Assembly (NCBI GenBank): GCA_021846395.1
Contig: JAJZXB010000005.1
Location: 1 to 64,000, forward strand
Reading direction: 5' to 3'
Length of the DNA stretch: 64,000 nt
From: Thermoplasmata archaeon
Lineage (GTDB): Archaea > Thermoplasmatota > Thermoplasmata > Thermoplasmatales > Thermoplasmataceae
Part shown: piece by piece, positions 29,518-49,001 of the stretch
Position numbering within the stretch: the first letter of the stretch is position 1
Layout: each line of letters opens with the position of its first letter
Notes under the pieces: generated by a model
Database searches by the model: none
What the model was told of the DNA's origin: nothing
What the model saw: only the letters and a program-made list of their open reading frames with translations
Made by a program: the position numbers and the translations under genes

Positions 29518-29566
29518 TTTTTTATTCGTATAAATAGATTTAAATTCGTATAGATAATTACCTATT

Positions 29567-29956: not shown

Positions 29957-30001
29957 CTATATTATTTTTAACTCCTGTGAACTGGAAATCCCCGTCCTAT
30001 T

Positions 30002-30036
30002 GGACTGGTGGGATGTCACTACCCCAGTCTGTTTTA
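30002..30036 (+). terminator. hairpin with T-rich tail between lrp-like gene and alba
   Basis: GACTGG (30003-30008) pairs with CCAGTC (30024-30029), extended by GG/CC across one bulged T, then TGTTTTATTT. It follows the Lrp-like gene by 46 nt. It looks like an intrinsic terminator, but the GC-rich block that precedes it (29981-30030) is longer than needed and may be a small structured RNA. Confidence 0.4.
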
Positions 30037-30100
30037 TTTAAAATCGAAAGTAACGACATTATTAAATATAGTAAATAAATATAGTTAAAGGGGATTTTAC

Positions 30101-30373
30101 ATGGCAGAAGAAAATACAATCTTTGTGGGAAAGAAACCAACTATGAATTATGTTCTTGCTATAGTTACGCAGTTTAACAACAATGATGTTGAGCGCATTA
30201 TTATTAAGGCGAGAGGTAAATCAATAAGCAAAGCTGTTGATATCGCCGAAATAACAAGACACAAGTTTGTACAGAGCATCAAATATGAAAAAATAACACT
30301 TGATACAGAAATTCTTGAAGGTGAAAGAGGACCGTCAAATGTCTCCTCTATAGAAATTGTGCTTTCAAAATAA
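30101..30373 (+). CDS. albA: Alba chromatin protein
   Basis: 90 aa, full-length Alba. VGKKPTMNYVLAIVTQFNN contains the DNA-contacting Lys pair (K11-K12 region, equivalent to the acetylated Lys16/17 of Sulfolobus Alba). VERIIIKARGKSISKAVDIA is the conserved dimer strand-helix, and LEGERGPSNVSSIEIVL the DNA-binding hairpin and last strand. It coats DNA and also binds RNA in archaea. A GGGGAT ribosome site stands before the ATG. A separate transcription unit. Confidence 0.95.
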   Translation: MAEENTIFVGKKPTMNYVLAIVTQFNNNDVERIIIKARGKSISKAVDIAEITRHKFVQSIKYEKITLDTEILEGERGPSNVSSIEIVLSK

Positions 30374-30471
30374 TTTCGCCAAAGACGTAAGTTATTATAA
30401 TTTTAAATTATTGATTTATATCACAAAACCTTAAATTGTTAATTTTAATACAACAGTAACTCGGTGTTTGA

Positions 30472-31464: not shown

Positions 31465-32622
31465 ATGACAAGAATATTATTATACACTGGAAAGGGTGGC
31501 GTTGGAAAAACAAGTGTGGCAGCTGCAACTGCAGTGCTGCTTTCAAAAAAATATAAAACACTGGTAATGTCAACCGACCCTGCACATAGCCTTGGGGATT
31601 CTCTTGAAAGGGAAATTGGTTCTGAACCAACTCTTATTTCAAATAATTTATATGCACAGGAAGTGAATATAAATGATGCGATTAATTCCCACTGGAAGGA
31701 TTTAAAAGAGTACTTAACTGCACTGTTTCAATATCAGGGCCTGGATCCAATATCTGCTGATGAAATAGCCATACTTCCAGGATTTGATGAGGCTGCATAT
31801 CTTTTATACATAAACGACTATGTTTCAAAAAACCAGTTTGATGTTATTGTTGTTGACAGTGCACCTACAGGTGAATCCCTGAGATTGCTATCATTTCCGG
31901 AGGTGATGAGGTGGTACATGGATAAAATATTTCCAATCAGCAGAACAGCTGCCAAGCTGGCAAGGCCATTAATGAGACCATTTTCAGGCATACCCGTTCC
32001 AAACGATGCAGTATTCAAAAGTGCTGAGACACTGTATGATCAGCTTGGAAACATCCATGATGTCTTGCAGAATCCAGATATAACTTCTATAAGGCTTGTA
32101 ACAAATGCCGATCAGATGTCATATAATGAGACAAAAAGGGCATTCACATATTTATTATTGTATGGGTATCCTGTTGATGCGGTAATAGCAAACAAAATCT
32201 ATACAGATGATACTGGAGATTTCTTTAAGGGATGGAGGGATTCCCAAACAAGAATTGTGGGTGAATTGCCAGATGCATTTCCTGATATAAATATTCTTAA
32301 GAGCTATCTACAGAATTATGAACTGCTTGGAGAGGAAAAATTATCGATTTTTGGAAAGAACATATACGGAAATTATGACCCATTTGATGTTTTTTATAAG
32401 GGAAAGCCAATAGAATATATAAAGAAGGGAAACAATACAGTGATAAAAATAGAACTGCCCCATGCAACAAAGGAAAACCTGAATGTTTATAATAAAGCAG
32501 GCGAATTGATAATCGAACTTAAAAACTGGAAACGTGTACTTTATTTACCGCAAACTATGGCAAATATGGAACCTCAGGATGCTGAATTAAAAAATGGTTA
32601 CCTATATATAACATTAAGTTAA
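31465..32622 (+). CDS. ArsA/Get3-family ATPase with C-terminal HSP20-like domain
   Basis: 385 aa. The deviant Walker A GKGGVGKTSVAAAT carries the signature Lys of the family, the switch I region is STDPAHSLGDSL, and Walker B/switch II is VVDSAPTGESLRLL. A C-terminal part (IKIELPHATKENLNVYNKAG to the end) is an HSP20/alpha-crystallin-like domain seen in archaeal ArsA proteins. The whole protein contains no cysteine, so neither the ArsA metalloid site nor the Get3 CxxC zinc site can be present. It is likely a dimeric client-handling ATPase, not an arsenite pump component. Directly abuts the GGPP synthase gene. Confidence 0.85.
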   Translation: MTRILLYTGKGGVGKTSVAAATAVLLSKKYKTLVMSTDPAHSLGDSLEREIGSEPTLISNNLYAQEVNINDAINSHWKDLKEYLTALFQYQGLDPISADEIAILPGFDEAAYLLYINDYVSKNQFDVIVVDSAPTGESLRLLSFPEVMRWYMDKIFPISRTAAKLARPLMRPFSGIPVPNDAVFKSAETLYDQLGNIHDVLQNPDITSIRLVTNADQMSYNETKRAFTYLLLYGYPVDAVIANKIYTDDTGDFFKGWRDSQTRIVGELPDAFPDINILKSYLQNYELLGEEKLSIFGKNIYGNYDPFDVFYKGKPIEYIKKGNNTVIKIELPHATKENLNVYNKAGELIIELKNWKRVLYLPQTMANMEPQDAELKNGYLYITLS

Positions 32623-32631
32623 TTACCGTAT

Positions 32632-32820
32632 ATGGATAAAAAAACTATCATTCAAATAAATATCGAGGTCCCAAAGATCGTTAATGATTTGATGAATGAA
32701 AGTGAAAAATATGCCAGAGGGGCTCTTGAGCTTCTAAAATTGGGCAATAGAATAGTATTCAAACAAACCAGTGAAAAGCATGAACCGGAGAAGAAATTAA
32801 AAAAATTGAATGTAAAATAA
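32632..32820 (+). CDS. small hypothetical protein
   Basis: 62 aa, basic at the C-terminus (KHEPEKKLKKLNVK), with one amphipathic helix (VPKIVNDLMNESEKYARGAL). No family recognised and no membrane segment. It starts 9 nt after the stop of the ArsA-type ATPase on the same strand and ends at the converging Taw1 gene with no gap. The compact placement supports a real gene, possibly co-transcribed with the ATPase. Confidence 0.5.
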   Translation: MDKKTIIQINIEVPKIVNDLMNESEKYARGALELLKLGNRIVFKQTSEKHEPEKKLKKLNVK

Positions 32821-33795
32821 TTAATTTTTATACTGTACACTCATGAGCTGCCTATCAATTTCTTCCTGAAAATTAATTCTGGCTTTTGATGGGTCCCTAG
32901 CAATCATAGCAACACGGCTTTCAAATCTATCGGCATATGGTGTATACCCTAATCTTTTTGAAAGTTCGTTTGAAAAGTCAAGAACCATTTCATGCGGTGG
33001 CATGTTTTCAAACTTAAGCCTGTCAGAAGATTGTCCCACGTGAACATATCCCTTTGATTCTATGAAATCAGGCTCCGCAAGTTTATCCATTTTCTCATAC
33101 TCATCCAGATATGGCATATTTACCTCCTTTACCAAAGTATGCCTTATCACCCTTCTGGTATTTAGAGATGGCAGCAATTCCAGAGTTTTGTTAAAATTCT
33201 CCCATGCATTCCCTATAGCAGGGTGCAGAACCTCATTGAATATTTTCTTTGTTGGACCAGCCACAGTAACATATAGCTGTGTGGGCAGGGGGTTGAGTTT
33301 TTCCAGGACCATTGGAAGAGTTCCATTTGTGACAACAAATGTGGAAATGCCCCTTCTTGCAGCGGCCTCTATTAATTCCCCAAGCCTTGTATACAGAGTT
33401 GGTTCTCCAGTTAATGAAATTGCCATATGTTTGGGATGTTCAGCCTCTTCAAATAATTCTTTTTTGACCTTGGGGTTTCCCTTAAAGCCTGATATTAATT
33501 TTAAATGTGCCTTTATGCTTTCTTCAAGTATGAATTCTGGATCGTCCTCATCAGATATGTGCATGCTGTCAAATCCCTGAAATCTCCAGCAGAATTCGCA
33601 ATTTTCAGAGCATGCATTCAATGATGGGGTCATCTGTATACATTGCGATGATTTTATTCCGTAAAATGTATTTTTATAACAGGTGCCATGGCCTGTTAAT
33701 TCACTCTTTGTCCAGTGGCATACCTTAACGGCAGAGTGCTTGCCAACAAGACCGTAATGCTGTTTTTTATAAATTGATTCATAATTATTCATCAT
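32821..33795 (-). CDS. taw1: tRNA 4-demethylwyosine synthase
   Basis: 324 aa radical SAM enzyme. The radical-SAM cluster motif is C62-x3-C66-x2-C69 (ACSENCEFCWRFQG). An N-terminal second cluster is supplied by C26, C39 and C52, the same spacing as in characterised archaeal Taw1. SLTGEPTLYTRLGELI and FVVTNGTLPMVL follow on the barrel. It makes the tricyclic imG-14 base on G37 of tRNA-Phe using pyruvate. Either of two Met codons at the N-terminus may be the start. Convergent with the small gene before it. Confidence 0.92.
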   Translation of the reverse strand: MMNNYESIYKKQHYGLVGKHSAVKVCHWTKSELTGHGTCYKNTFYGIKSSQCIQMTPSLNACSENCEFCWRFQGFDSMHISDEDDPEFILEESIKAHLKLISGFKGNPKVKKELFEEAEHPKHMAISLTGEPTLYTRLGELIEAAARRGISTFVVTNGTLPMVLEKLNPLPTQLYVTVAGPTKKIFNEVLHPAIGNAWENFNKTLELLPSLNTRRVIRHTLVKEVNMPYLDEYEKMDKLAEPDFIESKGYVHVGQSSDRLKFENMPPHEMVLDFSNELSKRLGYTPYADRFESRVAMIARDPSKARINFQEEIDRQLMSVQYKN

Positions 33796-34035
33796 TGAAT
33801 TGTCATTTTAAAAAAATATATAAAGTCTTTTAAATTATATTTGCAAATACACTTATGTCTATATTTTTATATTGTTTACGCTGAGTTTTGATAGAGTATA
33901 AGGGTAAATAAAACAAAGGAAGTGAAACATATCCTGTTGCAAAGAGGCTGATGAATAATGTGCGTCGATCTTATTTCAGAAAGTTTTTTATAATGATAGA
34001 ATACATTCTATAAAAATATTTATATTTATATTAAT

Positions 34036-34056
34036 ATTATTATTATTATTATTATT
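34036..34056 (+). repeat. (ATT)7 microsatellite before a start codon
   Basis: Seven ATT triplets followed by GTT and then the ATG of the secreted protein at 34060. A TATA-like block (about 34015-34030) lies just upstream, so repeat length would change the promoter-to-start spacing in a leaderless gene. Confidence 0.85.
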
Positions 34057-34059
34057 GTT

Positions 34060-35217
34060 ATGAAACCAAAAAACCTTATTAGATTTACAGCAATATTTGT
34101 AGTATTCCTATTTGTGGGAATGGGGTTTATAGGAATGGTTATTCAGAATGATAAAGTGGTTTCGAATACCAATGAACATGCAACAAATAAAAATTTTGCA
34201 AGCACATCGTTTGAATACAGTGCTTTAAATTATGCACGCAATCATTGGGGGAAAAATGCCACAAAAAATAAACTTGATTCTCTGGAATATTCTCTTAATT
34301 CCAACTTTATAACGTGGTACCACAATAATTATTATAAACTTCCATTAAAATACAGAAACCTCACAAATTCTAATATGCCATTCTTAATGAAAATATATCA
34401 AAATGAATCCCCAAAGGGAAAATTATTATTGTCCAATATAGCTAATTATGAAATGAATAAACAACATAAAAATAACCTTAATATAACTCATATAGTTAAT
34501 AATAGGATGGGCATATTAATATTAAATAAAACAATCATTTATCATAATAAAACTGCGTATCAACTCACATACAAATACAAAAAGAATAATTCATCACTTG
34601 TATATTCACTCATAATACAGGGCAAAAAAGTAATTCCTGTTGATCCATATATAAGATTGAACAATTTCAAAATATCCGCTGGTGTGTGGATATTTAAGGT
34701 ATATGGGGAAAGTTACAATATTTATCTTAGATTTAATAATTATAACAATGCCAAAGCTTATGAAAATTACATTATAGGGAATCTTCAATTAAAAGCGATT
34801 ATTACCGATATTATGGATGGAATTTTTTGGATTGCTCTGGGTGTATTAACAACTGGTTGGGTGGGAGTCCTAGTTGCTGTAGCCGGGACACTTGTTTCGG
34901 ATCTAGCAGGTGTGACAAATCCACTCACTATTGCCCATAATGTTAAAACTCTATTTAAAAATGAGTGGGGATATAGTGGAAATTTCAGAATAGTATTTAC
35001 TGAAAATGAGTGGGAAAATGGAGCCTTGCCTGAATTTGCAGTTTGGGGAAGGATAAACCCCGGGAACAGTTTATTCGAAGTTTTTCGAAGTTTTCAATAT
35101 TTAACACAAAACGAGGGGAATAATTTCGTTAAAGCCTTTGGTAAACTTGCAGCTCATTATGGATTAGATAAAACTGACTATATAAGTAATCCCAAGGAAT
35201 GGAGGTACTTTGGGTAA
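34060..35217 (+). CDS. secreted or membrane-anchored protein, unknown family
   Basis: 385 aa. The N-terminus has a basic start and a strong hydrophobic segment (LIRFTAIFVVFLFVGMGFIG) that is a signal peptide or anchor. A second hydrophobic block lies near residues 255-285 (IFWIALGVLTTGWVGVLVAV) and may insert in the membrane. The rest is Asn/Tyr/Lys-rich, typical of extracellular proteins of acidophiles. No family recognised. It is followed by an overlapping membrane-protein gene, so the two are probably a unit. Confidence 0.65.
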   Translation: MKPKNLIRFTAIFVVFLFVGMGFIGMVIQNDKVVSNTNEHATNKNFASTSFEYSALNYARNHWGKNATKNKLDSLEYSLNSNFITWYHNNYYKLPLKYRNLTNSNMPFLMKIYQNESPKGKLLLSNIANYEMNKQHKNNLNITHIVNNRMGILILNKTIIYHNKTAYQLTYKYKKNNSSLVYSLIIQGKKVIPVDPYIRLNNFKISAGVWIFKVYGESYNIYLRFNNYNNAKAYENYIIGNLQLKAIITDIMDGIFWIALGVLTTGWVGVLVAVAGTLVSDLAGVTNPLTIAHNVKTLFKNEWGYSGNFRIVFTENEWENGALPEFAVWGRINPGNSLFEVFRSFQYLTQNEGNNFVKAFGKLAAHYGLDKTDYISNPKEWRYFG

Positions 35218-35674
35218 TAAATTAAAAACACAAGGTGTTCCAAAAATGATATCTGAGTTAATATTAATTAATGCCTCAATTGCAATTATATTTATATTAA
35301 TAAAGGGCCTAATGGATTTAGAGATAACAGGAAAACAATTAAAAAAACCACTAGCAATTTCCATAGCAAATCTTATTATCATACTAATTATTTTTGGCAT
35401 TTATTATAGATCTATTTTTTTATCTCAATATAGATATTTTTATCAAATTGGACATTTGGTATATTTTTCATATCAATTTTTTTATATATTTACTTTTGAT
35501 GAGTTTTTAATTATTAGCTATTTCACTCTACTTCTACTTTCATTAACTAATAAAACTGGCAAATTAAACCTTATGAAAAAATATCATATTACTAGAGATG
35601 AGGTAAATAAACTAAATCCATTCAATAAGAAAAAACTTGTAAGGGAATGGTCTGAATGGAATAAGAATAAATAG
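35210..35674 (+). CDS. small polytopic membrane protein
   Basis: 154 aa starting at TTG, which overlaps the end of the secreted-protein gene by 8 nt. The TTG is preceded by GGAGGT a few bases upstream, supporting it over later ATGs. Four hydrophobic helices can be seen (LILINASIAIIFILIK, ISIANLIIILIIFGIY, a Phe/Tyr-rich stretch, and FLIISYFTLLLLSL). The C-terminus is basic (KKKLVREWSEWNKNK). No family recognised. Probably works together with the preceding secreted protein. Confidence 0.6.
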   Translation: MGNKLKTQGVPKMISELILINASIAIIFILIKGLMDLEITGKQLKKPLAISIANLIIILIIFGIYYRSIFLSQYRYFYQIGHLVYFSYQFFYIFTFDEFLIISYFTLLLLSLTNKTGKLNLMKKYHITRDEVNKLNPFNKKKLVREWSEWNKNK

Positions 35675-36042
35675 CAATACATGGATTTACAATGTATTAA
35701 GGGCAAAAAAATTCGCAATTATTATGATACTTGGAAACAATTGTTTTTTCCACTTAGTGCTTTTTAATATAAAAATTATTCATCGTGTGCAGGCGCTCCA
35801 CACATATTGATTGTGAATGAATACACCAAATATTTGGCACACATTTTTTCCATTTTTCAATACACTTTACATTTATTTTAAACTCCCTATATTTTAAACC
35901 GATTCAATTTTCAAATTACAGAATTTCATGGATTTTGATGGGGTTGATATCACTGGCATTTATATCCTTTATAATACCGGTACATGAAGAAGTTTATATA
36001 AAATTATATGGAAATACAAAAATAAAATAAAAAATTATATCC
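35675..36042. other. intergenic region
   Basis: About 370 bases with no gene. Just after the membrane-protein stop, AATACAT and ATGTATT form a 7-bp hairpin with a 9-nt loop (35677-35700), perhaps transcript-end related. GTGTG and CACAC near 35790-35810 form a second weak hairpin. Otherwise only AT-rich sequence. Confidence 0.4.
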
Positions 36043-37671
36043 TTATTCGTATCCGCCTGGTGGCATTCCTCCCATTCCGCCTGGAGCTCCACCTTTCGAT
36101 GACTTTGTTGCTATGACATCATCTATTCTCAGTATCATAACGGCTGCCTCAGTGGCTGCTTCGATGGCCTGTTTTCCAACTCTGATGGGTTCTATTACAC
36201 CTGTTTTTTCCATGTCTTCAACGCTTCCAGTGAATACATTTAACCCAAAGGTCTTTTTGCCCTGTGCATGTGCACTTCTGATCTGTATAAGCATATCTAT
36301 TGGATCGAGACCTGCATTTTCTGCCAGTGCTCTGGGTATATCTTCAAGTGCATCAGCAAATTTTTCAATTGCAAGCTGCTGTCTTCCGCCAACTTTGGAA
36401 GCATATGATCTTAGCCTGAAGGCGATTTCTTCTGATGCTGATCCTCCACCGGTTACGTAAGCTCCATCCTCAACTGCAGCGGCGACAACATGCAATGAAT
36501 CAGTAATTGACCTTTCTATTTCATCAGCTACATGTTCTGTTCCAGCTTTTATCAAAATGCTTATTGCCTTTGGATTCTTGCTTCCTGTTATGAAGGTCAT
36601 ATAGTCGTCCCCAACCTTTCTTTCCTCAACCGTTGATGCAAATCCAAGGTCGGATGGTGTAATTTCTTCAAGTGAGGATATTATTGTTGCACTTGTGGCC
36701 TTTGCAAGCTTATCAACATCGCTTTTTTTGACCCTTCTTACTGCATATATTCCTTCTCTGGCAAGGTAATGCTGTGCCATATCATCTATTCCTTTCTGTG
36801 TTATGACCACATTTGCCCCTATTGATTTTACCTTTTCTACCATCTCCTTTAAAAGGTCTTCCTCCTGGGTCAGAAATTTCTGTATCATTTTAGGATCGCT
36901 TATCTGAAGATTGGTATCAAATTCAGGCTTTTTGATTTCAAGTGCTGCATCAAGCAGTGCTATTCTTGCATCCTTTACAATCTTTGGCATATTTGGATGT
37001 ACCTTTTCCTTATCAAGAATGATGCCGTCTATTAACTTGGTTTCTCCGATTTCTCCACTATGCTTCTTGACTATCATTAAATTGTCAAAATCAACATAGT
37101 ATTTGCCATCTCTTTCCTCTGCAATGTTTTTAATTGCTTCATATGAAATTCCTCCAAGCAAATCTTCCTCAACTGAAGCACTCTTGCTGTTTAGAGATGT
37201 TTTTGCCATTTTAACGAGTAATTCCTCATCATTAATTTTTACTTTTTTTGAAATTTCGTCAAGCACCTTTGAGGCTTCAGCTGCTGCCATTTTGTAGCCC
37301 TCAGTAATAACTGTAGCATGAACATTTTGATTTATCAATGTTTGTGCCTGATCCAGCAGTGCACCTGCAATTACAACTGCTGTTGTTGTACCATCACCAA
37401 CATAGCTGTCCTGTGTTTTTGATACTTCCACCATCATCTTGGCTGCAGGGTGTTCCACATCCATTTCCTTTAAAATTGTAACTCCATCATTTGTTATAAC
37501 TATATCTCCAAGGGAATCTACTAGCATCTTATCCATTCCTCTTGGACCCAATGTAGATCTTATTGATGTGGCAATTGCCTTGGCAGCATCAATGTTTTCC
37601 TGCATTGCATCTCTTCCGCTTTCTCTTTTTGTTCCTTCTCTTAATACAAAAATTGGTTGACCACCGATCAT
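36043..37671 (-). CDS. ths: thermosome subunit (group II chaperonin)
   Basis: 542 aa. ATP-binding motifs are complete: [40 protein letters not shown] and the [10 protein letters not shown] loop. The C-terminus is the Gly/Met-rich [16 protein letters not shown] tail. The start [20 protein letters not shown] is the usual thermosome N-terminus, so the ATG at 37671 is preferred over one 9 nt upstream. It forms the double-ring folding chamber in the cytosol. A TATA element 27 nt upstream of the ATG predicts a nearly leaderless transcript. Alpha or beta subunit identity was not decided. Confidence 0.95.
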
Positions 37672-37696
37672 GATTATCAATAAGTAAAAATAAACT

Positions 37697-37708
37697 TCTA
37701 TATAAGGA
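37697..37708 (-). promoter_or_regulatory. TATA box of thermosome gene
   Basis: The minus strand reads CCTTATATAG here. Its distance to the ATG at 37671 (about 30 nt) places the transcription start within a few bases of the start codon, as is usual in Thermoplasmatales. Confidence 0.55.
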
Positions 37709-37779
37709 TTACTATATATGATTTAATTATATTATTAGTTTATTATATTTTTATTAATATATTGACCGTCCTCCCCGCT

Positions 37780-40482
37780 TCACCAGTACTGTCTGTTTTT
37801 TGCATAGTCTGTCTCTGCCTTCAATAACTGCCTTATCATGTCATCCTCATTTAGATATGATACTTCCAGTATTCTTGAGGCAGTTTCAGGGCCTACGCCT
37901 CTGGCCGCCATGACCATTATTGCAGTAATTCCCCTTTCTCTTACAAGGTGCGCGTTCTGAACCAATCTTTTTTTTGCTTTCTGATCCATATTTCTCAGTG
38001 AATCCTCATCAAATTTTGAAATTGAAGCAACTAGATGAGAGTGGCAAACGGGGCATTTTATATCACCTATATCCTTTATTTTTTTTGTTCTTTTATTTCC
38101 ACAGGATGTACAGTAAAGTATGACTTCTTCATTCATGAGCCTTTTTTTGATGGAGTCAAGGATTGTTTTTGTTGGCCTCAATGGCATTATTCTCTCTGAA
38201 TAATGGTATAAAAAAACGTTGGATGATTCTGATATTTTATCCCTTAAAACAAAGTTTACATTTTTAATGTTTGATAAGTACGATTTTAAAACATCTATAT
38301 CCATATAATCAAATATCAGTTTTCTCATGGAGTCTTCATAAACAGGTGACTCATAATATGCATCCACAATTTTTTCAAATCTGATCCTGCTTATATCCGC
38401 ATCAACATTAATCACCCCAAATTTTCTTGCCTCATATAGAAATACATTGCTGAAGAATCTCGACCTCCTCACTGATGATTTTATATATCCATTTAAATTT
38501 TCTATATTTATTGACATTATTATATTTTTGATATCACCTGAGGATATATTTCTTGTGAGCTTTAAATAAATATGATATGGTGAATAGTCCATTTCAACAC
38601 TTTCACCTGTAATCGATGTCATTATGCCTGACAGAATTTCACCCATGGTAAAATTTCCCAAACTGCCAAGCAGTATCTGGATAATCACCTCTGCATTGTG
38701 CGACTCAATAATTACCCTATCCAGTGTTGCAATATCATGTTCATACCAGTCTTTCAATAAGTCCCGGCCTCTCTGATTGAGAAAAGCCGGTATCTCCTTA
38801 TTTTCTCTGTTTTCTGAAACACGGGAAACCGCTTCATAAAGAACGGGAATTTCTTCACCGGTCCAGTGTGGAGCTATTGCGGCAGTTGGAAATGGCTCAA
38901 CGTGAATTATATCATCCTTAATCCGTATTGTTCTCCATGTTGAACCCCTTATGATAAAAAATGATCCCGGCTCAATTTCATTTAAAACATATTTCTCATC
39001 CAGTGTACCGATAAATTTTCTATTCGCTATATCAATAACCCTGTAATTTTTCTCGCTGGCTATCATTGATATATTCTGAATATAGTATTTCAATATTGAA
39101 TATCTTTTTATTATATGCGCATCCTCAATAATGAGTTTTTTTGTTTTTGAAAGTAAGTCTATCACGGACATATAGTCCTCATAAGATAATGTCCTGAATG
39201 GGTAAGCTCCTGTAATTATTTTATAAAAATCGTCATATTTAATTTTTTTTGAATAATTCAATTCAAGCAATATCTGATTTGCCACAGTTGAAAGTGAATT
39301 TTTTCTTATCATTACATTTTCCAAATTGTGCTCATTCACATTGTCCACTATTGCTACGGCTTCTTCCAGTTCAATTACATCATTGCATATTATGATGCCT
39401 TGCGATATCTTTTCCAGGTTATGCCCTGATCTCCCTATTCTCTGTACCAGTTTGTTTATTTGCCTGGGCGAATTAAACTGAACAACAGTATCTGCTGTCC
39501 CGATATCAATCCCCAATTCAAGGGATGAAGTGCATATCATCCCCTTTATTTTATTGTTTTTAAAATCATATTCTGCTGTCTCCCTGGTCTCCTTTGATAA
39601 TGAGCCATGGTGTACTTCAATATCTGGATTTTTAAGCCAGAGCCTAAGTCTAAAGGCAATATCCTCAGCCACATATCTCCTGTTGACAAACACAATTGTT
39701 CCCATGTTATGTTCTATTATTGAGTGTATTTTTACAAGAGCACCTGCAAATTGCGGATCACATCCCATGATTTCGGATATCTGTTCATTTGCCTCATCGG
39801 GATATAAAACCTCCACTTTCATTTTTTTATCAATTCCTGGCTTGATTATTTCCGGCCTATTGCGAGGTGATAAAAAATCTGCAAGTTCATTTTCATTTTT
39901 TATGGTTGCCGATAATCCTATTATCTGTATGTGCCCTGCTAGTGCTTTCAGGCGTTCCATTGCTATTGAGAACTGTGACCCTCGTTCATTCTGGGCCATC
40001 TCATGAACCTCGTCAACTATTACATACTTTGTATTTTTTATATGTTCTCTCAAATTTTTTCCGGACATTAAAAGCTGCAATGATTCCGGTGTGGTAATTA
40101 ATATTTCAGCAGGATTTTTTGATATTTCGGCCCTCTGTGCCTGAGTGATATCGCTATGCCTTACCTGTATTCTTATACCAAGAGTGCTGCAGTAATCATA
40201 CAATCTGGATAACATATCCCTGTTCAATGCCCTTAATGGGGTGATATACAGAAGTGAAATTGGTTGTGGCTTATCATTATATATCATATTTATCAGAGGC
40301 AGGATTGCAGCTTCTGTTTTACCTGATCCTGTTGGTGATATGAGCAGAACGTTTTTGCCGGAAAGTATTTCGGGAATTGCCAATTTCTGGGCTTCTGTCG
40401 GGTTGTAAAGCCCATTTCTATTTATACTCTTAACAAGTTCGGGATTCAGTAAGCTAAAAACATTTTTAAACAGTGGATCCAT
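37780..40482 (-). CDS. lhr: Lhr-family ATP-dependent helicase
   Basis: 900 aa superfamily 2 helicase. Motifs: Q-like YNPTEAQKLAIPEI, Walker A SPTGSGKTEAA (50-60), YITPLRALN, ITTPESLQLL, DEVHEM (motif II), GLSATI (motif III), SLELGIDIG and QRIGRSGHN (motif VI). A long C-terminal half forms the winged-helix and Lhr-specific domains. A late C4 zinc site, LYCTSCGN with IKCPVCHSH, is followed by HhH-like VMAARGVGPETASRILE. Lhr helicases unwind branched DNA and RNA:DNA hybrids in repair. Monocistronic, same strand as the thermosome. Confidence 0.9.
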   Translation of the reverse strand: MDPLFKNVFSLLNPELVKSINRNGLYNPTEAQKLAIPEILSGKNVLLISPTGSGKTEAAILPLINMIYNDKPQPISLLYITPLRALNRDMLSRLYDYCSTLGIRIQVRHSDITQAQRAEISKNPAEILITTPESLQLLMSGKNLREHIKNTKYVIVDEVHEMAQNERGSQFSIAMERLKALAGHIQIIGLSATIKNENELADFLSPRNRPEIIKPGIDKKMKVEVLYPDEANEQISEIMGCDPQFAGALVKIHSIIEHNMGTIVFVNRRYVAEDIAFRLRLWLKNPDIEVHHGSLSKETRETAEYDFKNNKIKGMICTSSLELGIDIGTADTVVQFNSPRQINKLVQRIGRSGHNLEKISQGIIICNDVIELEEAVAIVDNVNEHNLENVMIRKNSLSTVANQILLELNYSKKIKYDDFYKIITGAYPFRTLSYEDYMSVIDLLSKTKKLIIEDAHIIKRYSILKYYIQNISMIASEKNYRVIDIANRKFIGTLDEKYVLNEIEPGSFFIIRGSTWRTIRIKDDIIHVEPFPTAAIAPHWTGEEIPVLYEAVSRVSENRENKEIPAFLNQRGRDLLKDWYEHDIATLDRVIIESHNAEVIIQILLGSLGNFTMGEILSGIMTSITGESVEMDYSPYHIYLKLTRNISSGDIKNIIMSINIENLNGYIKSSVRRSRFFSNVFLYEARKFGVINVDADISRIRFEKIVDAYYESPVYEDSMRKLIFDYMDIDVLKSYLSNIKNVNFVLRDKISESSNVFLYHYSERIMPLRPTKTILDSIKKRLMNEEVILYCTSCGNKRTKKIKDIGDIKCPVCHSHLVASISKFDEDSLRNMDQKAKKRLVQNAHLVRERGITAIMVMAARGVGPETASRILEVSYLNEDDMIRQLLKAETDYAKNRQYW

Positions 40483-40656
40483 AATTTAATATTCAAATTA
40501 CCTATTCATATTTAAATTTTATAAATATATTATTCTTAAAAGCATTACTTGAAAAATTTACACTTGAAGAAACCAATAAATTTTTTTCAATAAAATGATT
40601 CAAACCATTTATTCAAATATGCAAAATTATATTTATAGAATATTTTTTTTCATAAT

Positions 40657-40932
40657 ATGGTCAAACCTCCTGAAACATTAATGGGCTTGCGTGTATGGTA
40701 CTCTATAGATAATGGTAAATTTTTATGGTGCCCGGAATACGGGAATATTCCACAACCTTCTGGTTGGGAACTTCTTCGGCCTGGAAATACTTACATGACC
40801 AGAACACTGAAAAAATTGGGTCTCCATTGGATACTTCTACAAAGGCATAAGAAATACACGTATAACATTGGGATAATAGCTCCAGCTGAAAATATCAAGG
40901 AAGTGAGAAAGCTGGAAGAAGAATCACAATAG
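40657..40932 (+). CDS. small hypothetical protein, aromatic-rich
   Basis: 91 aa, with Trp/Tyr/Gly-rich segments (LRVWYSIDNGKFLWCPEYG, SGWELLRPGNTYMTRTLKK, HWILLQRHKKYTYNIGI) suggesting a small beta-barrel fold such as an SH3- or OB-like nucleic-acid binder. That is a guess from composition. No family recognised. Convergent with the ArsR-type gene. Codon use resembles its neighbours. Confidence 0.55.
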   Translation: MVKPPETLMGLRVWYSIDNGKFLWCPEYGNIPQPSGWELLRPGNTYMTRTLKKLGLHWILLQRHKKYTYNIGIIAPAENIKEVRKLEEESQ

Positions 40933-40983
40933 GAAAGAGAGATAAAAAAATAAAAAATCCAGGAAGTTGAAAATTTTTAAAAT

Positions 40984-41643
40984 TCAACAGCCATCGCCAA
41001 AAAATTTCTGCAAATCTCTTTTAACCACTATTTTTCTTGTTCCCTTAATTCTATCAATATAACCATATTCTTCAAGCGTTTTTAACAGGGAAGCACCAAG
41101 AGTTCCACCAAGATGGTATTTTTTAACGGTGGAATCAAAGCACCCATAGGCAAAAATTCTGTTGCTGTTTTTTCTTGTTGAGATGTCAACATTTTTTGAT
41201 ATCAGAGCATTTTTTCCCCTTAAAGTGAGTGAAAATTCATTGTGGCTATCCTTGACTAACCATTTTCTTGCAACCATTCCATTGAAAATTTTCACTCCCT
41301 CGATACCTGCCAGATGGTCATAGCATACCCTCGCACGGTGAAAATCTTTAATATTATAATCCACGGTTATATCATCTTGCCCAGAGTTGATTATATTATT
41401 AAGGTAATTCACAAGTTCTTCAATGCCTTCTGGCAATAATTTATATATCCTTTCCCTTCCAATATTATATGTATCTACAATTCCAATTCCGAGAAGTATG
41501 GATAAATGTGTTGATACGGTTGACTGGTGCAATCCCGTTTTGATAACTATTCCCGTGACAGTTTCTGTTTTTTTTGATAGTATTTCGATAATTTTAATTC
41601 TTAAAGGATTGGAAAATGCCCTTATAACATCACTTGCTTCCAT
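40984..41643 (-). CDS. ArsR-family winged-helix regulator
   Basis: 219 aa. N-terminal ArsR-type winged helix-turn-helix (RAFSNPLRIKIIEILSKKTE, GLHQSTVSTHLSILLGIGIV). The larger C-terminal part contains ARVCYDHLAGIEGVKIFNGM, a pattern known from ArsR-type regulators of bacterial transporters, and a second winged-helix-like end (GTLGASLLKTLEEYGYIDRI). No obvious metal-binding Cys pair in the HTH (CVCDL type) is seen. Divergent from an MFS transporter with a shared 95-nt promoter region holding an inverted repeat, so it probably controls that transporter. Confidence 0.8.
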   Translation of the reverse strand: MEASDVIRAFSNPLRIKIIEILSKKTETVTGIVIKTGLHQSTVSTHLSILLGIGIVDTYNIGRERIYKLLPEGIEELVNYLNNIINSGQDDITVDYNIKDFHRARVCYDHLAGIEGVKIFNGMVARKWLVKDSHNEFSLTLRGKNALISKNVDISTRKNSNRIFAYGCFDSTVKKYHLGGTLGASLLKTLEEYGYIDRIKGTRKIVVKRDLQKFFGDGC

Positions 41644-41675
41644 AATACCTTCATAATCTATCGTTTAATAAATTT

Positions 41676-41705
41676 TTCACATATCGGGATTCAATGATAT
41701 ATGAA
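41676..41705. promoter_or_regulatory. inverted repeat between ArsR-type and MFS genes
   Basis: TTCACATATC (41676-41685) and GATATATGAA (41696-41705) match as an inverted repeat in 9 of 10 positions with a 10-nt spacer. It lies in the shared promoter of the divergent pair, which is where an autoregulating ArsR protein would bind. Confidence 0.4.
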
Positions 41706-41737
41706 AATAAATTTATGATAAATAAATATAAAGGAGG

Positions 41738-42907
41738 GTGCAAAATTATAAAAGCAGGGTGTATTCTGTTCATATTGCAAGGCTCTTATATGGGATAAAC
41801 TGGATGGATATAGCACCCGCACTTTCATATATCAGGCAATCCTTTCTTATATCAACTGTTGAAATTGGTGCACTTGTGGCTTCCTTTTATACTGGTTTAT
41901 TTGCATTTCAATTTCTTGGTGGTTATTTGTCCTCTTTAATTGGAGATAAAACAACCTCACTAACCGGAATACTTCTTGTTGGTATATTTGCCATAACGTC
42001 AGGACTTTCAACTAATTTTCCGGAACTTTTATTATCAAGGTTTTTTGCAGGTATTGCTTCAGCGCTATTTTTCTCCCCTGCCCTTAGCCTGCTTGCATCT
42101 ATAGTGCCTGCGGAAAAATACACATTTCACGTTGGTATATACAATGCATCCTACGCCATTGGTTCCGGAATTGGTGTGGCTGGATGGTCAATAATGGATA
42201 TTTATGAAGGATATAAAAACGGCTTTATTATAGCTGGAATAGCAACAGTATTTTTGTTTATCATGCTTACAATACTTTTAAAAGATATAAGCAATGTTAA
42301 AACACATAAAAAAGATATTGCAAAAAGCATTAAAATGGTATTATCATCAAAATTGATCCCACTTGTTGCTTTGATAGGCGGAGGGACCATAATAGCTTAT
42401 ACAATTATGGGACAATTTTTTGTGTATTACCTTGAATATTTAAAATTTGGCACTCTTAAATCCGGTTATATTTCTTCCCTATCTTTATTGATAGGTTTTA
42501 TTGGGGGTGTTGTTGGAGGGTATCATTATTCAAAGACAAAGCATAAACTTGCAGTTTTTATAATGCTTAATGTATTGATTTCCATTCTTCTTATTGTTGT
42601 GGGATTTGTTTTCAATATCATTTTAATTATTATCACTGTAATTTTGATGGGCATGCTGGCAGTATATGGTTTCTCTGTTATTTATGCAATAATAAGAAAG
42701 CTTTCCAGAAGAGATCTCGTTTCATTGTCAATATCCTATGTAAATACTGTGCAACTGGCAATCGCCGCTATTGTTCCGGTTATATTTACTTATTTATCTG
42801 AAATTTCTGGCTACAAAACTTCATGGATTGCCATGGGAATAATATCAATGGCGCTTATATCTCTGATAATACCTGCAAAAAAGGAACTTTATAATAAAAT
42901 ATCGTAA
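41738..42907 (+). CDS. MFS transporter
   Basis: 389 aa with 12 hydrophobic helices of the major facilitator fold. The N-terminal half has LYGINWMDIAPALSYIRQSF in TM1 and LLSRFFAGIASALFFSPALS in TM4. The GTG at 41738 is inside GGAGGGTG, so the ribosome site would overlap it; the true start may be slightly different, and no better ATG is seen. Substrate unknown; exporters of drugs or metabolites are common in this branch. Regulation by the divergent ArsR-type protein is likely. Confidence 0.8.
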   Translation: MQNYKSRVYSVHIARLLYGINWMDIAPALSYIRQSFLISTVEIGALVASFYTGLFAFQFLGGYLSSLIGDKTTSLTGILLVGIFAITSGLSTNFPELLLSRFFAGIASALFFSPALSLLASIVPAEKYTFHVGIYNASYAIGSGIGVAGWSIMDIYEGYKNGFIIAGIATVFLFIMLTILLKDISNVKTHKKDIAKSIKMVLSSKLIPLVALIGGGTIIAYTIMGQFFVYYLEYLKFGTLKSGYISSLSLLIGFIGGVVGGYHYSKTKHKLAVFIMLNVLISILLIVVGFVFNIILIIITVILMGMLAVYGFSVIYAIIRKLSRRDLVSLSISYVNTVQLAIAAIVPVIFTYLSEISGYKTSWIAMGIISMALISLIIPAKKELYNKIS

Positions 42908-43269
42908 CTTTACATGATTTCTTTGTAAAATTATTCATAAATATTGAATTTTACGCAGTTTTAACGCATTGTCCGTGTAGTGCATATTCTATTGAAATTA
43001 TCTTAAATTTATTTGCAAGATCCAACATCTTTTGCTACAAAACCATAATGGCAAGGATATTAATTCAACACCATGAAACCATTAAATCACAATTCAATTA
43101 AATAAAGGGTTTTAGAAAAAATAAAGTGAGACAAATGTAAAGTCGTGTATGATGTTTCAATATTCAGATAAGAATATACATCCCAGAAAATATGCTATGT
43201 ATCATTTTTTTAAATGTGTGAAAAACAATGCATTAGATAAATATTTTAAATAAATAATAATACAGTTCT
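42908..43269. other. intergenic region with a gene relic
   Basis: About 360 AT-rich bases. The only recognisable content is a 25-codon minus-strand ORF at 42951-43028 starting MLDLANKFKIISIEYALHGQ, which matches the degenerate fragment at 2971-3096. The rest (43030-43260) shows no gene; the promoter of the arginine decarboxylase gene is at its end. Confidence 0.5.
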
Positions 43270-43809
43270 ATGTTACTTCCAAAAAAAATATTCTTTACAC
43301 GTGGTATAGGCAGGGGTGAAACGCAGTTGCAATCGTTTGAAAATGCCCTGAGAGATGCGGACATAGCCCCATATAATCTGGTAAGTGTAAGTTCCATACT
43401 TCCACCATATGCCGAAATAATAGATAAATCCGAGGGAATAAAATTGCTGTCATATGGCCAGATATTATTCACCGTTCTTGCAAGAAATTCATCAAATGAA
43501 CTCAATAGAATGATATCCTCTGCTATTGGTTTTGCCGTTCCTGCGGATAGGGGGAAATGGGGATATTTAAGTGAACACCATTCATTTGGCCAAACAGAAA
43601 ATGATTCGGGGCACTTTGCCGAAAAATTAGCAGCGGAAATGCTTGCAAGTACGATGGGATTGGATGAGCATCTAACATGGGATGAAAATAAAAATGAATA
43701 TGTGCTTGATGATAAAATTTTAACTACTAAAAATATTGCTGCAACAACCGTGGTATTGAAACCGGATGAATGGGCAACGGTTATTGCTGCGGCTGTACTG
43801 GTGGTATGA
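43270..43809 (+). CDS. pdaD: pyruvoyl-dependent arginine decarboxylase
   Basis: 179 aa, full length. The proenzyme self-cleaves at the Ser-Ser of [14 protein letters not shown], leaving a pyruvoyl group on the alpha chain. [20 protein letters not shown] at the N-terminus and [20 protein letters not shown] in the alpha chain are family signatures, with a conserved Glu in EKLAAEMLA. It makes agmatine, needed for polyamines and for the agmatidine base of tRNA-Ile2 in archaea. It overlaps the LeuRS start by ATGA, so both are translated together. Confidence 0.95.
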
Positions 43810-46523
43810 ACATGGACAACTCAATAGAACAGAAATGGCGCAATGCCTGGGATAAAAATAATATTTTTGAGGCAAAAGTTGAGGCTTCCAAAAAAAAGTT
43901 TTTGGTTACTGTGCCATGGCCATATACAAATGGATCACTTCATGTGGGGCATGGGAGAACCTATACACTTGGAGACATAGTTGCCAGATACAAGCGAATG
44001 ATTGGGTATAACGTTCTTTTTCCCATGGCATTTCATGAAAGCGGCACCCCGATACTTGCATTTTCTGAGAGAATAGCAAACAATGACAAGGATACTCTAA
44101 AATTATACAGAAATTATTTAATGGAATATGAAAAGTCAGAAAATATTGATGACATTATCTATTCATTCAGAGAGCCCAAGAATATTGCTGAATATTTTTC
44201 AAAGGTAATAATTAAGGATTTTTCTGACCTTGGATATTCCATAGACTGGTCCAGAAAATTCACCTCAGCTGACAACTTTTATCAGTGTATTGTTAGATGG
44301 CAATTTGATCATTTAAAGACCCTTGGATTGCTGAAAAAGGGTGAATATCCAATTCTGTACAGCATAAATGATGAGAATGCGGTAGGAGAAGATGACATAA
44401 AGGACGGCGATACTGATAAGGTAAGCGTGGAAGAATTTACTGGGGTGCTATTCAAAGGCAGAAACTTTGACCTTATAACGGCCTCTTTGAGGCCGGAAAC
44501 ACTGTTCGGTGTTACAAATTTATGGATAAATCCGGATGCGGATTATGTAATTATAAATTACGGAAACCGTGATATTGCCATTTCATATTCGGGATATATA
44601 AAATTTTCATTGCAGCATGAAGGCGTGAAGCTTGTAAAACATATAAATAAGGATGACATTTTAAAGGAAAAATTCAAAGTTCCACTGTACAATGCAGATG
44701 TGTCTGTATATGAAGCGAATTTTGTTGATCCAGATAACGGTAGCGGAATTGTGTATTCTGTTCCTGGCCACTCAATATTTGATTATGTATATTTCAAAAA
44801 AAATAATCTTGACTTTGATATTAAGAAAGTTGTTGAAACTGGAAATGATATAAATGTGGAGAGCCTGATAAGAAAATATGACCTTTTAAACAATTCAGAT
44901 AAACTGAAGGAAGCAACGCAGGAATTATACAAGGAGGAATTTTACAAGGGAACGTTGATAAACTCAAGCAAATACTCAGGATTATCGGTCAATGAAGTTA
45001 GGGAACAGATAAAAAAAGATCTTATACATGAAAATATGGGCATTATATTCTATGAAACCAGCAGAAAGGCCGAAACAAGAAGTGGTTCACTGGTAATTGT
45101 TGCTATTTTAAAGGATCAGTGGTTCATTGACTATTCCAGAGACTGGCTAAAGGAAAAAGCGCATGATTCCATCAATTCAATGAAATTTTATCCCGAGTTA
45201 TATAGAAAATTGATGAATGATGCCATTGACTGGCTAAAGGAAAGGCCATGCGCCAGAAAGAGGGGCATAGGGACAAAATTGCCATTTGATAACAGATGGA
45301 TCATTGAATCACTATCTGATTCAACTATTTACATGATAACCTATACAAATGCAACTGAGATGAAAAATATATATGACCATCTTGGGGATATTGAAGATGA
45401 AATACTGGATTATGTTTACCTCAATGAAAATTTGGATATGGGTAAATATGATGAACTGACCCGCAAAAATATAATTGCTGCAAGGGAAAAATTCAACTAC
45501 TGGTATGGTAATGATTTGAGAATAACCGCCCCCCCGCATATTTCTAACCATCTGGCATTTTTTATAATGAATCATGCCGCAATCTTTAATGGTAAGAATT
45601 TGCCAGGTGGGCTAATGTTATCTGGAATTGTAATATCCAATGGGTCAAAAATTTCTAAAAGCAAGGGTAATGTCATATCATTGCTTGAAATTACAAAAAA
45701 ATATTCTGCAGATCTTTACAGGCTATTCATAGCAGTCGGAGCCGATGTGTCATCGTTGCTCGACTGGAATGAGAAGGATATTGCCTCAGTTTCAAAGAGA
45801 TACGACTACTTCATAAATATTTTAAAGGATTACAACAGAGACGCAGAAGAAAGCGGCGATTATATATACAAATGGTTTGTATCATCGTTTTACAGTCATT
45901 TAAAGGACTATCTCAGCAATATGGAAGCAATGAAAATAAGGGATGCATACATATCCATATTTTACAGTGTACTCAATGATTTAAAAACGCTTGAAAACAT
46001 GGGTGGGAATATCAACAGCGGATTAAAATTGATTATGCATGACTGGTTGATTGCAATGTCTCCTGTAATTCCCTACTCATGTGAAGAATTCTGGCATATG
46101 CACATTAATGACAAATTTGTAAGCACGGAGATTCTGGATACAAATGTTGAGGATAAGATAAATTATGGCATACTGGCAGCCGAGGAATATCTTGAGAGAG
46201 TGTTGACGGATATAAAGGAAATATCAAAGGTAATAAAAAATCAGGGAGAAACTGCGAATATAACTGTTTTTGGAGAATATCAGAAAGATTTTATAGAAAT
46301 GTTCAACAGAAAGGAGATAAAGCAAGAATATAAAATAATGATAAAGGATTATATAAAAAATAGAAACAGAATCCTTGATAAGCAGATAGATGAATATGCG
46401 GTTTTATCAGAAAATAGATCATACATGGAAAGGGTTACTGGGCTGAAAATAGAGATACTAAAAAGCAAAAACATAGAACAGAAAAACCCATGGCCCGGAA
46501 GACCAACCATAAAAATAATTTAA
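43806..46523 (+). CDS. leuS: leucyl-tRNA synthetase (archaeal type)
   Basis: 905 aa class I synthetase. The HIGH motif is HVGH in [20 protein letters not shown], and KMSKS is [12 protein letters not shown]. The editing domain is inserted between ([13 protein letters not shown] region, TLFGVT). The [13 protein letters not shown]-like segment CEEFWHMHI and the C-terminal [13 protein letters not shown] tail fit the archaeal/eukaryotic LeuRS type. The ATG at 43806 is in ATGA overlap with the pdaD stop; a second ATG 6 nt later is possible. It charges tRNA-Leu. Confidence 0.95.
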
Positions 46524-46942
46524 ATATCGAATACAATTGTGGCATAATTTTTTTCCGGACATATCTCCAGATCGTAATATGTTGGATCCTTGATAACATA
46601 TTCATATTCAACATTTTCAGGCAGTTCTGCCCCATATAACTTCCCTGTAATATGCATATTTTTTATTTCAAGGTCTGAAATGAAATAAAGAATATTTTGC
46701 GTTTCAAGATAGTATATAATATCTGATAGTAAGGAAACTAGAAGATCATAATAATTATTTCTTTCAATTTTTATGTCAATTATTTTATCGGGAATTAAAT
46801 TGCTAGTTTTAACAATTAAATTTGCCATTGCAGATATGGCATTTTCAAAAATTGTTTTATAGGAATTACCATACACCTTTATTTTTAAATCTCCGGTATG
46901 ATCAAGAACCTCATACATGATTTTGGGATTTTTTTCTTCCAT
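46520..46942 (-). CDS. archease
   Basis: 140 aa. YEVLDHTGDLKIKVYGNSYK is the archease N-terminus with the metal-binding Asp, and LLVSLLSDIIYYLETQNILY and the C-terminal Asp near [17 protein letters not shown] are typical. Archease activates the RNA ligase RtcB and also modulates tRNA m5C methylation. A longer start at 46993 is open, but the ATG at 46942 follows GGAAG and begins closer to the family start. It overlaps the end of leuS by 4 nt, tail to tail. Confidence 0.9.
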   Translation of the reverse strand: MEEKNPKIMYEVLDHTGDLKIKVYGNSYKTIFENAISAMANLIVKTSNLIPDKIIDIKIERNNYYDLLVSLLSDIIYYLETQNILYFISDLEIKNMHITGKLYGAELPENVEYEYVIKDPTYYDLEICPEKNYATIVFDI

Positions 46943-47009
46943 GTTAATATCTTCCTTTAAGTTTATGATATCATTAAACTTTAAATTTTTCATATATCTG
47001 TGAAATATG

Positions 47010-47031
47010 CAGAAATTATGTTACATAATCA
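47010..47031. repeat. solo IS-end-like sequence
   Basis: 22 nt matching 50906-50927 in 20 positions (CAG-A/C-AATTATGTTACA-T/C-AATCA). The other copy is placed at the edge of a transposase relic, so this one may be a leftover terminal repeat. It borders the peptide/2-TM locus. Confidence 0.4.
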
Positions 47032-47048
47032 TAATTTTATTAAATTAC

Positions 47049-47252
47049 TCATTTTATTATATTGTTAGACTTTTTATTATATATGATATTATTTCCTAAT
47101 ATCCCGATAGTTATTACACTTAATATTATTAATAATGATACCCATATATAAAGAGATGGTTTTTTATAATTTAATACCATTTCTCCTATGAATGAAATAT
47201 AACTTAGGATTATAGCTAATATCATAGCTTTAGTTATTTTCACATGTCTCAT
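47049..47252 (-). CDS. small two-helix membrane protein beside peptide gene
   Basis: 67 aa. Helix 1 is ILAIILSYISFIGEMVL, a basic loop NYKKPS follows, helix 2 is LYIWVSLLIILSVITIGILG, and the tail is polar and basic (NNIIYNKKSNNIIK). The ATG at 47252 is preferred to TTG at 47264 because GGTGAG precedes it by 5 nt. Same architecture as the 63-aa protein at 7758-7949, though sequence identity is not obvious. It follows the 60-aa peptide gene and a 25-codon ORF (47258-47335) whose stop overlaps the ribosome site. An immunity- or export-type role is inference. Confidence 0.55.
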   Translation of the reverse strand: MRHVKITKAMILAIILSYISFIGEMVLNYKKPSLYIWVSLLIILSVITIGILGNNIIYNKKSNNIIK

Positions 47253-47345
47253 TTTTCTCACCAAAATATGTGCTCTATTCCCATATCCGGGTATTTTGGA
47301 TGGTGATTCTCAATTTGATAATAAAATTCAATCATTATACCACTA

Positions 47346-47528
47346 TCAAGTAAGATAAGTAAAGCAATTCCCACAACCAACTGGACTAGACATTGCTGCT
47401 ATAAAACCTATTACAGCTATTACAAGCAAAATCCAGCTTAATGTAGAATCGTCCATTACCACTGCACTTGTTTCACTTATGTTCATGGATTTTACAGTAT
47501 TATTTGTTCTGGATGGCATTGTATTCAT
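47346..47528 (-). CDS. 60-aa putative secreted/antimicrobial-type peptide precursor
   Basis: Leader MNTMPSRTNNTVKSMN (identical in DNA to 7975-8027), then SETSAVVMDDST, a hydrophobic core LSWILLVIAVIGFIAAM, and a Cys-containing end SSPVGCGNCFTYLT. Size, leader-like polar start, hydrophobic core and a C-x-x-C tail fit a bacteriocin-like precursor or a small membrane peptide. No export or modification gene is adjacent. Its ATG overlaps the stop of an IS3 OrfA fragment (ATGA), so an OrfB N-terminus was considered, but no transposase features are present. Confidence 0.5.
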   Translation of the reverse strand: MNTMPSRTNNTVKSMNISETSAVVMDDSTLSWILLVIAVIGFIAAMSSPVGCGNCFTYLT

Positions 47529-47531
47529 TGC
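47479..47531 (-). repeat. 53-nt exact repeat, copy B
   Basis: Identical to 7975-8027 on the same strand. It begins at the start of the 60-aa peptide gene, just behind the OrfA stop, and ends within codon 17. The flanks are unrelated. Confidence 0.95.
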
Positions 47532-47824
47532 CTCCCACCTTTCCTCATAAGCTGTGTTTTTTTTAATGTTTCATTGGCCACTGTCAATTCACCTATTATT
47601 TTCTTAAGATCATTTATTTCTTTTCTTGATTTCTGGTATTCAGATGACCTTCCAGGTTCCAGTGCTGATGTTCCACCCTCTATAAAAGAATCCCTCCATT
47701 TATATAATAATGATACAGCTGTATTGTATTTCCTGCTTATCTCTGCTATTGTTTCTGTGCTTGAAAGCATCTCCATTACTATCCTTGCTTTCTCTTCCTT
47801 TGTTTTGAATGATCGGTTATTCAT
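47525..47824 (-). mobile_element. IS3-family OrfA fragment (HTH transposase subunit)
   Basis: 99 aa. KTKEEKARIVMEMLSSTETI, AEISRKYNTAVSLLYKWRD and a downstream leucine-zipper-like coil (SRKEINDLKKIIGELTVANE) match the HTH_Tnp_1 OrfA of IS3/IS911-type elements. SD GAGGTGAT precedes the ATG. The OrfB catalytic gene that should follow is absent: the next ORF is the 60-aa peptide. The protein is too short to transpose alone; it could survive as a DNA-binding protein. Confidence 0.75.
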
Positions 47825-47999
47825 TAATATATCACCTCTATATTCTGTACTACCCTATTGAAGCCTTTCTCTCCTGTTAAACTGTCTGAATGAAAGTGAA
47901 CCCATAACAAACTCCTTACAGCATAAACAATTTGTATATAATTCCCTGAATTAACGTGTTTATACCTTTCTTTCCATTTTTCATCCTCCTATTTTTAAA

Positions 48000-48296: not shown

Positions 48297-49001
48297 ATGC
48301 AACAGGGTCAAATGGCTTATGATAGAGCAATTACGGTATTTTCTCCTGATGGGAGATTATTTCAGGTTGAGTATGCAAGAGAAGCAGTTAAAAAAGGTTC
48401 CACAGCACTAGGTATTAAGTTCAAGGACGGAGTGATACTTTTGTCAGAGAAAAAAGTCAGAAGCAAGCTTGTGGAAAAAAATTCACTGGAAAAAATCCAG
48501 TTAATTGATGATTACGTGGCAACAGTTACATCAGGCCTTGTTGCTGATGCAAGAGTTTTAATAGACTTTGCAAGAATTGGGGCACAGCAGGAAAAGGTTA
48601 CATATGGTTCATTGACAAACATAGAAAACCTTGTAAAGAAAGTGGCAGACCAGATGCAGCAGTATACGCAATTCGGAGGTGTAAGACCCTATGGTGTTTC
48701 AATAATATTTGCGGGAATGGATACAATAGGCCCTAGACTCTTTGACTGTGATCCTGCCGGAACAATAAATGAGTATAAATCCGTAGCTATAGGTGCAGGC
48801 AAGGATGCTGCAACCGATTATATTGAAAAAGCTTATAAAGAAGATATGACCATGGATGAAACAATAAAAATGGGAATAGCCGCTTTAAAAGCTGCAATTA
48901 CGGATGAAAGTTCAATCAAGGAACCAGAAATTGCCGCAATAAAGGTTGGTGAGAGGTTCCACATATTGACCAACGATGAAGTTGCAAAGTATTTAAATTA
49001 A
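48297..49001 (+). CDS. psmA: 20S proteasome subunit alpha
   Basis: 234 aa. [20 protein letters not shown] with [16 protein letters not shown] is the alpha-subunit H0/YDR signature that forms the outer ring gate. There is no catalytic Thr propeptide, so it is not beta. The end [12 protein letters not shown] is Glu/Asn-like rather than catalytic. GAGGTGA is placed 4 nt before the ATG, an excellent ribosome site. Cytosolic protein degradation. Monocistronic here. Confidence 0.97.

Follow-up and report, generated by a model that had tools for sequence, protein, structure and literature searches.

Direct-repeat scars in a Thermoplasmata archaeon as probable remnants of a polymorphic, bacteriocin-like peptide system

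Results

Organization of the locus

The window analysed in this work is a stretch of 64,000 nt, positions 1-64,000 of the forward strand of contig JAJZXB010000005.1, from Thermoplasmata archaeon GCA_021846395.1 (Thermoplasmataceae; genome G000). The following features are considered:

6750..7568, minus strand: TatD-like gene, flanking the ancestral slot on the left
7758..7949, minus strand: 63-aa two-helix membrane ORF following decayed copy A
7962..8203, minus strand: decayed full-length precursor gene (copy A), start codon kept (MKYKYQLQ-stop), part of the leader kept
7975..8027, minus strand: 53-nt direct repeat, copy A, exact match to copy B
8204..47048, no strand assigned: ~39-kb block between the remnants, not in this slot in the congener G001
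47049..47264, minus strand: 71-aa basic two-helix membrane ORF after copy B, TTG start, in an immunity-type position
47346..47528, minus strand: chimeric 60-aa ORF (copy B), sequence MNTMPSRTNNTVKSMNISETSAVVMDDSTLSWILLVIAVIGFIAAMSSPVGCGNCFTYLT
47479..47531, minus strand: 53-nt direct repeat, copy B, whose 5' edge GCAATGAATACAATG is common to the IS3 orfB start
47517..47909, minus strand: fragment of an IS3-type element comprising the left end and orfA (47525-47824), with 97% identity to the IS at G000:C21:166223
48297..49001, plus strand: proteasome alpha subunit gene psmA, right flank of the ancestral slot

A sequence-only reading of this DNA had described an exact 53-nt repeat, the 60-aa ORF and a small protein with two transmembrane helices (2-TM) behind each repeat copy, and all of these are present: the two repeat copies lie on the minus strand (7975-8027 and 47479-47531), the 60-aa ORF at 47346-47528 (-), and the 2-TM ORFs that follow the two copies at 7758-7949 (-, 63 aa) and 47049-47264 (-, 71 aa). 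A third copy with 1 mismatch occurs in the same genome at G000:C12:60791, and the chance expectation for the 24-nt core of the repeat is 0.00, even allowing 3 mismatches. The edges of identity, which had been taken as the limits of a leader, proved accidental. One is the IS3 junction of copy B and the other a deletion in copy A, and these therefore form the two borders of the repeat; in relatives a block of ~46 codons is conserved, with conservation continuing further upstream.

After its early stop, the sequence of copy A resumes at the last part of the pro-part and the leader of the precursor described below; it carries internal deletions and its core is gone. The 63-aa ORF behind it shows 27-31% identity to the partners of SYWWC-type cores in G001:C55 and G000:C7. 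Beside copy A, at 8552-9030 (-), lies what is left of a different protein, whose C-terminus is hydrophobic and has one Cys; its homologues are sporadic (G001:C2, G092:C59, G097 and G008), and it could possibly represent a second peptide family.

The ORF of copy B starts in the start-codon context of IS3 orfB, continues with the end of the conserved leader and finishes with a short atypical core. At G000:C21:166223 the IS is intact, orfB coming after orfA, and the junction sequence there is GGAGGCAATGAATACAATGGTTAAC, that of the copy A leader being ATTGCAATGAATACAATGCCATCC; the point of orfA-leader fusion in copy B falls within their common 15-nt microhomology GCAATGAATACAATG. No close relative of the 71-aa ORF was found among the other partners of the family. 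The 60-aa ORF had been proposed as a candidate bacteriocin-like gene with the leader at its N-terminus, but it is instead a chimera, and probably a remnant, in which IS3 orfA context is joined to a leader fragment and the core is short and atypical; the supposed leader is in reality the C-terminal end of the ~230-aa N-terminal part of a secreted precursor, corresponding to the last portion of the ~46-aa leader. Both copies are probably remnants, so the reported leader is no N-terminus and the 60-aa ORF no normal gene.

A family of secreted-type precursors in Thermoplasmatales

Relatives were searched first at the protein level, followed by a profile search across the order. The protein search returned 12 copies in the window genome, 9 in the congener G001 (MAG TL1-4.bin46) and one each in G011, taken as Ferroplasma acidiphilum Y (PMC5473848), and G027, and the profile search widened the set to eight genomes of genus g10, taken as Ferroplasma, along with distant members in other genera; outside the order, two weak family members were found. 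The set of leaders compared below (n=55, Thermoplasmatales) comes from the window genome, one congener and eight Ferroplasma-genus genomes, and the assemblies are mostly draft, several arrays stopping at contig borders (C6, C7, C20, C24). The suggested leader search in Thermoplasmatales thus returned conserved leaders followed by variable cores and small membrane neighbours, and relatives bore out the idea of a recombining family of peptide precursors whose leader is conserved, whose core can be replaced and whose neighbour is a small membrane gene.

Eight genes are intact (300-318 aa), one of them in F. acidiphilum, and each has an N-terminal hydrophobic segment (signal peptide). The intact precursor consists of the signal peptide, a pro-part of ~175 aa with 19-30% Asn, the conserved ~46-aa leader and a variable core. 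Cores are hydrophobic, 45-75 aa long, and 42 of 47 contain exactly two Cys, one no more than 6 residues from the start and the other no more than 16 from the end. A small hydrophobic membrane ORF lies directly downstream on the same strand in 53/55 leader copies, compared with 12.75% of random positions; these partner ORFs encode 60-168 aa, start -59 to +106 nt from the core stop codon and are all of net positive charge (53/53, median +8). dN/dS is 0.07-0.23 for the pro-part between genomes, 0.16-0.58 for cores in most pairs (one pair 1.3) and 0.20-0.33 for partners in most pairs, two Ferroplasma pairs with few substitutions reaching 0.64 and 1.1. Since these values are mostly <1, coding constraint is visible in the pro-part, most cores and most partners.

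In most full-length copies of the window's genus a +1 frameshift separates the signal peptide from the rest, and because of it no intact expressed gene is visible in the window assembly. The frameshift is exactly one extra nucleotide in the poly-A tract that separates the codons of signal peptide and pro-part, present in L036 ~5380 (G000:C23), L101 ~106-165 (G000:C20) and L040, L041 and L043 (G001); the tract is in frame in G001:C25, G000:C12 and Ferroplasma. Both halves of the frameshifted copies look selected (dN/dS about 0.33 and 0.15), and the extra nucleotide may reflect phase variation, transcriptional slippage or a dead allele that has spread. At G027:C1 760442-764011 the precursor gene is split, the signal-peptide part lying ~2.6 kb from the remainder, probably through an insertion.

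Comparable layouts were observed elsewhere. L116 964-2512 (G437), L099, L113 and L114 encode distant precursors of secreted type whose hydrophobic C-termini contain Cys, and a membrane protein of ~130 aa comes after each of them, so that the pair layout extends beyond Ferroplasma. In the window itself, 34060-35674 (+) encodes a signal-peptide-like, Asn-rich protein of 385 aa with a hydrophobic stretch toward its C-terminus. A membrane protein of 154 aa overlaps it; the layout is alike and the sequence apparently unrelated to the family.

Cassette arrays and covariation of cores with partners

Many copies have neither signal peptide nor pro-part and form tandem arrays, as in G000:C24, G001:C40 and G092:C62; such 5'-truncated units of leader, core and partner also occur outside arrays. 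Homology between array units starts 10-50 nt 5' of the MKTLINS codons, coinciding with the stop codon of the partner gene before, and the unit therefore runs from leader to next leader. Similarity of cores is correlated with similarity of partners (Mantel r 0.72 with overlapping DNA removed, p 2e-4, all 5,000 permutations <0.27), also between genomes (r 0.73) and on 37 non-redundant cores (r 0.66). Core and leader similarity within a genome are uncorrelated (r -0.03, p 0.58). Among the 781 pairs with core similarity <=0.25, none had partner similarity >0.3 (0/781), the exceptions to covariation being a few similar cores with dissimilar partners (G093:C8:65029). Leader similarity falls from 0.88 within a genome to 0.73 among different genomes of one genus and to 0.55 across genera, the corresponding values for cores being 0.18, 0.19 (within genus) and 0.15. 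Related cores mostly occupy different genomic slots, and in the slot at the lpd-like gene, compared between G091 and G093, leaders are 0.75-0.81 similar and cores unrelated (0.12-0.15). As judged by these sequence comparisons, leaders have been homogenised genome by genome without following the cores, and cores and partners travel together. One and the same partner gene, an orphan immunity candidate, has no core of its own in G001:C55 and follows a truncated core in G000:C22 (L041 5082-5405, L037 4695-5027).

History of the TatD-psmA slot

The TatD-like gene and psmA are adjacent in two outgroups, with a spacing of ~185 bp in G002 and ~180 bp in F. acidiphilum. In the sister species (G001:C40) they flank a region of ~3.9 kb with a four-unit array (four cores), and in the window they stand ~40 kb apart, with copies A and B at the edges; the tested parts of the intervening block map to the G001 contigs C63 and C64. 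The simplest reading is insertion of an array followed by rearrangement via leader repeats and IS damage, an order of events that we infer. Recombination between leaders, together with the IS3 fusion, would have destroyed the array between the TatD-like gene and psmA in the window genome, leaving two direct-repeat scars 40 kb apart.

Discussion

Our results suggest that copies A and B are what probably remains of a Sec-secreted polymorphic system of bacteriocin-like type in Ferroplasma-type archaea, one that exchanges cassettes and in which the small membrane partner is probably an immunity protein. The precursor would be exported and cut near the leader-core border, and the core, its two ends linked by a disulfide, could insert as a helical hairpin into the membranes of related, wall-less competitors, the producer being protected by the partner. 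Recombination between leaders would then load a stored core with its partner onto the full-length gene. We also propose, tentatively, a peptide weapon that resembles contact-dependent inhibition (CDI), in which a library of core/immunity cassettes might reload one Sec-secreted precursor by recombination through the conserved leader, with expression gated in some species by poly-A slippage between signal peptide and pro-part.

Other explanations have to account for the same observations. The signal peptide, the Asn-rich pro-part and the hydrophobic C-terminus would also suit a variable surface protein, in which the core is the C-terminal anchor of a possibly glycosylated ectodomain, the partner assists assembly and exchange serves surface variation; N-x-S/T sites are somewhat more numerous than in shuffles (10-12 vs 6-8), and hydrophobic two-helix cores could be membrane anchors. 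However, the exposed pro-part is the conserved portion (dN/dS 0.07-0.23) and the membrane part the variable one, the reverse of antigenic variation, and an anchor needs neither two terminal Cys nor a one-to-one partner, which makes this reading unlikely. Covariation of core and partner fits a ligand and its receptor as well as a toxin and its immunity protein, and a secreted peptide for signalling or kin recognition, paired with a cognate receptor in the membrane, pherotype-like and diversified by cassettes without killing, has to be weighed too; we consider it quite unlikely, as the 60-168-aa membrane partners are without a recognisable signalling domain and orphan arrays of ligand-receptor pairs would be unusual.

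Two further readings seem highly improbable. Short ORF pairs in arrays recall intracellular small-protein toxin-antitoxin modules that multiplied in the genome, but the intact members have a signal peptide and a pro-part of ~175 aa, and the partner is a membrane protein. An IS-associated ORF, the repeat simply belonging to an insertion sequence, was the main alternative offered by the sequence-only reading, and it is refuted except at the copy B junction, where the repeat copy stands directly behind IS3 orfA and IS orfB begins with the same 12 nt ATGAATACAATG. It thus explains the first 4-5 codons of the 60-aa ORF, by microhomology, but not the remainder: the intact IS diverges past those 12 nt, and dozens of leader copies are without a preceding IS, like the intact one in F. 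acidiphilum. The leader does not form part of an IS3-type transposase, GCAATGAATACAATG being all that it has in common with the intact IS orfB start, and among the leader copies the outcome that would have spoken for an IS origin, a leader occurring solely as a transposase N-terminus, was not found.

The bacteriocin-like reading was also compared with known toxin families. Nothing credible as a toxin fold or family was found in Pfam, NCBIfam, PADLOC, PHROGs or solved-structure sequences, PADLOC giving one weak LeoBC match (E 1e-4) in one member, and an AlphaFold2 model of the full precursor was unusable (pLDDT 40). Viral contigs and plasmids held no relative of the family, and a viral or plasmid origin was rejected for this reason. 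The gene family apparently has no name so far; the literature search found no prior mention, and an earlier one, for example in Makarova et al. 2019 (mBio e00715-19), is possible. With the family, the known archaeal antimicrobial repertoire gains dozens of genes that had no annotation, and its leader repeats mark the edges of a large chromosome rearrangement. The genus has a cultured and sequenced type strain (F. acidiphilum), and peptide antagonism, immunity and cassette switching in acid-mine archaea become directly testable.

Among archaeal proteins, the fusellovirus toxins SSV1 A-291 and SSV9 B310 are likewise of ~300 aa and are secreted, as the precursors here would be, and in SSV9 a small gene lies downstream, as here (PMC13431529, PMC8628083). 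Identity with them was rejected, as profile comparison with SSV1 A-291 by hhalign gave a probability of 0.25%. The halocin C8 precursor is an archaeal protein of similar plan, secreted and with a hydrophobic core that contains Cys at the C-terminus, after a larger N-terminal portion; the halocin C8 core is Cys-rich, unlike the cores described here with exactly two Cys (42/47) and a separate downstream partner gene. Immunity to halocin C8 is encoded within the same preproprotein (PMC3831642); here a separate, co-varying downstream gene is present besides the pro-part. Full precursors had no direct match to the halocin C8 model, and membership was rejected because TIGR04449 has no match in G000, G001, G011, G027 or G090. 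The model scores over its cut-off in five other genomes of the order, and halocin C8 domain proteins were observed in other Thermoplasmatales (L130-L133; G013, G014, G025, G042).

Bacterial class II and circular bacteriocins have a leader, a short hydrophobic core and a small basic membrane immunity protein encoded next door. The units described here likewise combine a leader, a short hydrophobic core and a neighbouring small basic membrane protein; unlike the bacterial pairs, they have a long pro-part and orphan arrays, no sequence relationship was found, and no dedicated transporter or protease gene was noticed beside them.

The CDI (CdiA-CT/CdiI) and Rhs systems likewise join a constant N-terminal to a variable C-terminal part, with a cognate downstream partner that co-varies with the latter (here 53/55, Mantel r 0.72), and their orphan modules are likewise 5'-truncated and arrayed, with homology from one conserved block to the next, IS disruption and interchange between slots (PMC3150448, PMC3482391). 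By polymorphic-toxin logic, toxin and immunity should arrive jointly in one exchange (PMC3482391). Unlike in CDI and Rhs, the precursor here is a small, Sec-type protein of ~300 aa in an archaeal host, and in place of large toxin domains there are hydrophobic two-Cys cores of 45-75 aa with membrane-protein partners. Known trafficking (TpsA, RHS, PVC and others) or toxin domains were not detected by Pfam/NCBIfam, in which PKD repeats in a distant G102 homologue were the sole family found. Since there is neither a known polymorphic-toxin domain nor a halocin C8 match, the family is not filed as a member of either. By its layout, it would work in the manner of CDI/Rhs polymorphic toxins and also in that of a bacteriocin with its immunity protein. 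Most archaeal lineages are described as generally lacking polymorphic toxin systems that have orphan cassettes (PMC3482391), and a polymorphic-toxin-like architecture can now be described in wall-less, extremely acidophilic archaea, where the exchangeable part is a small hydrophobic peptide with two Cys.
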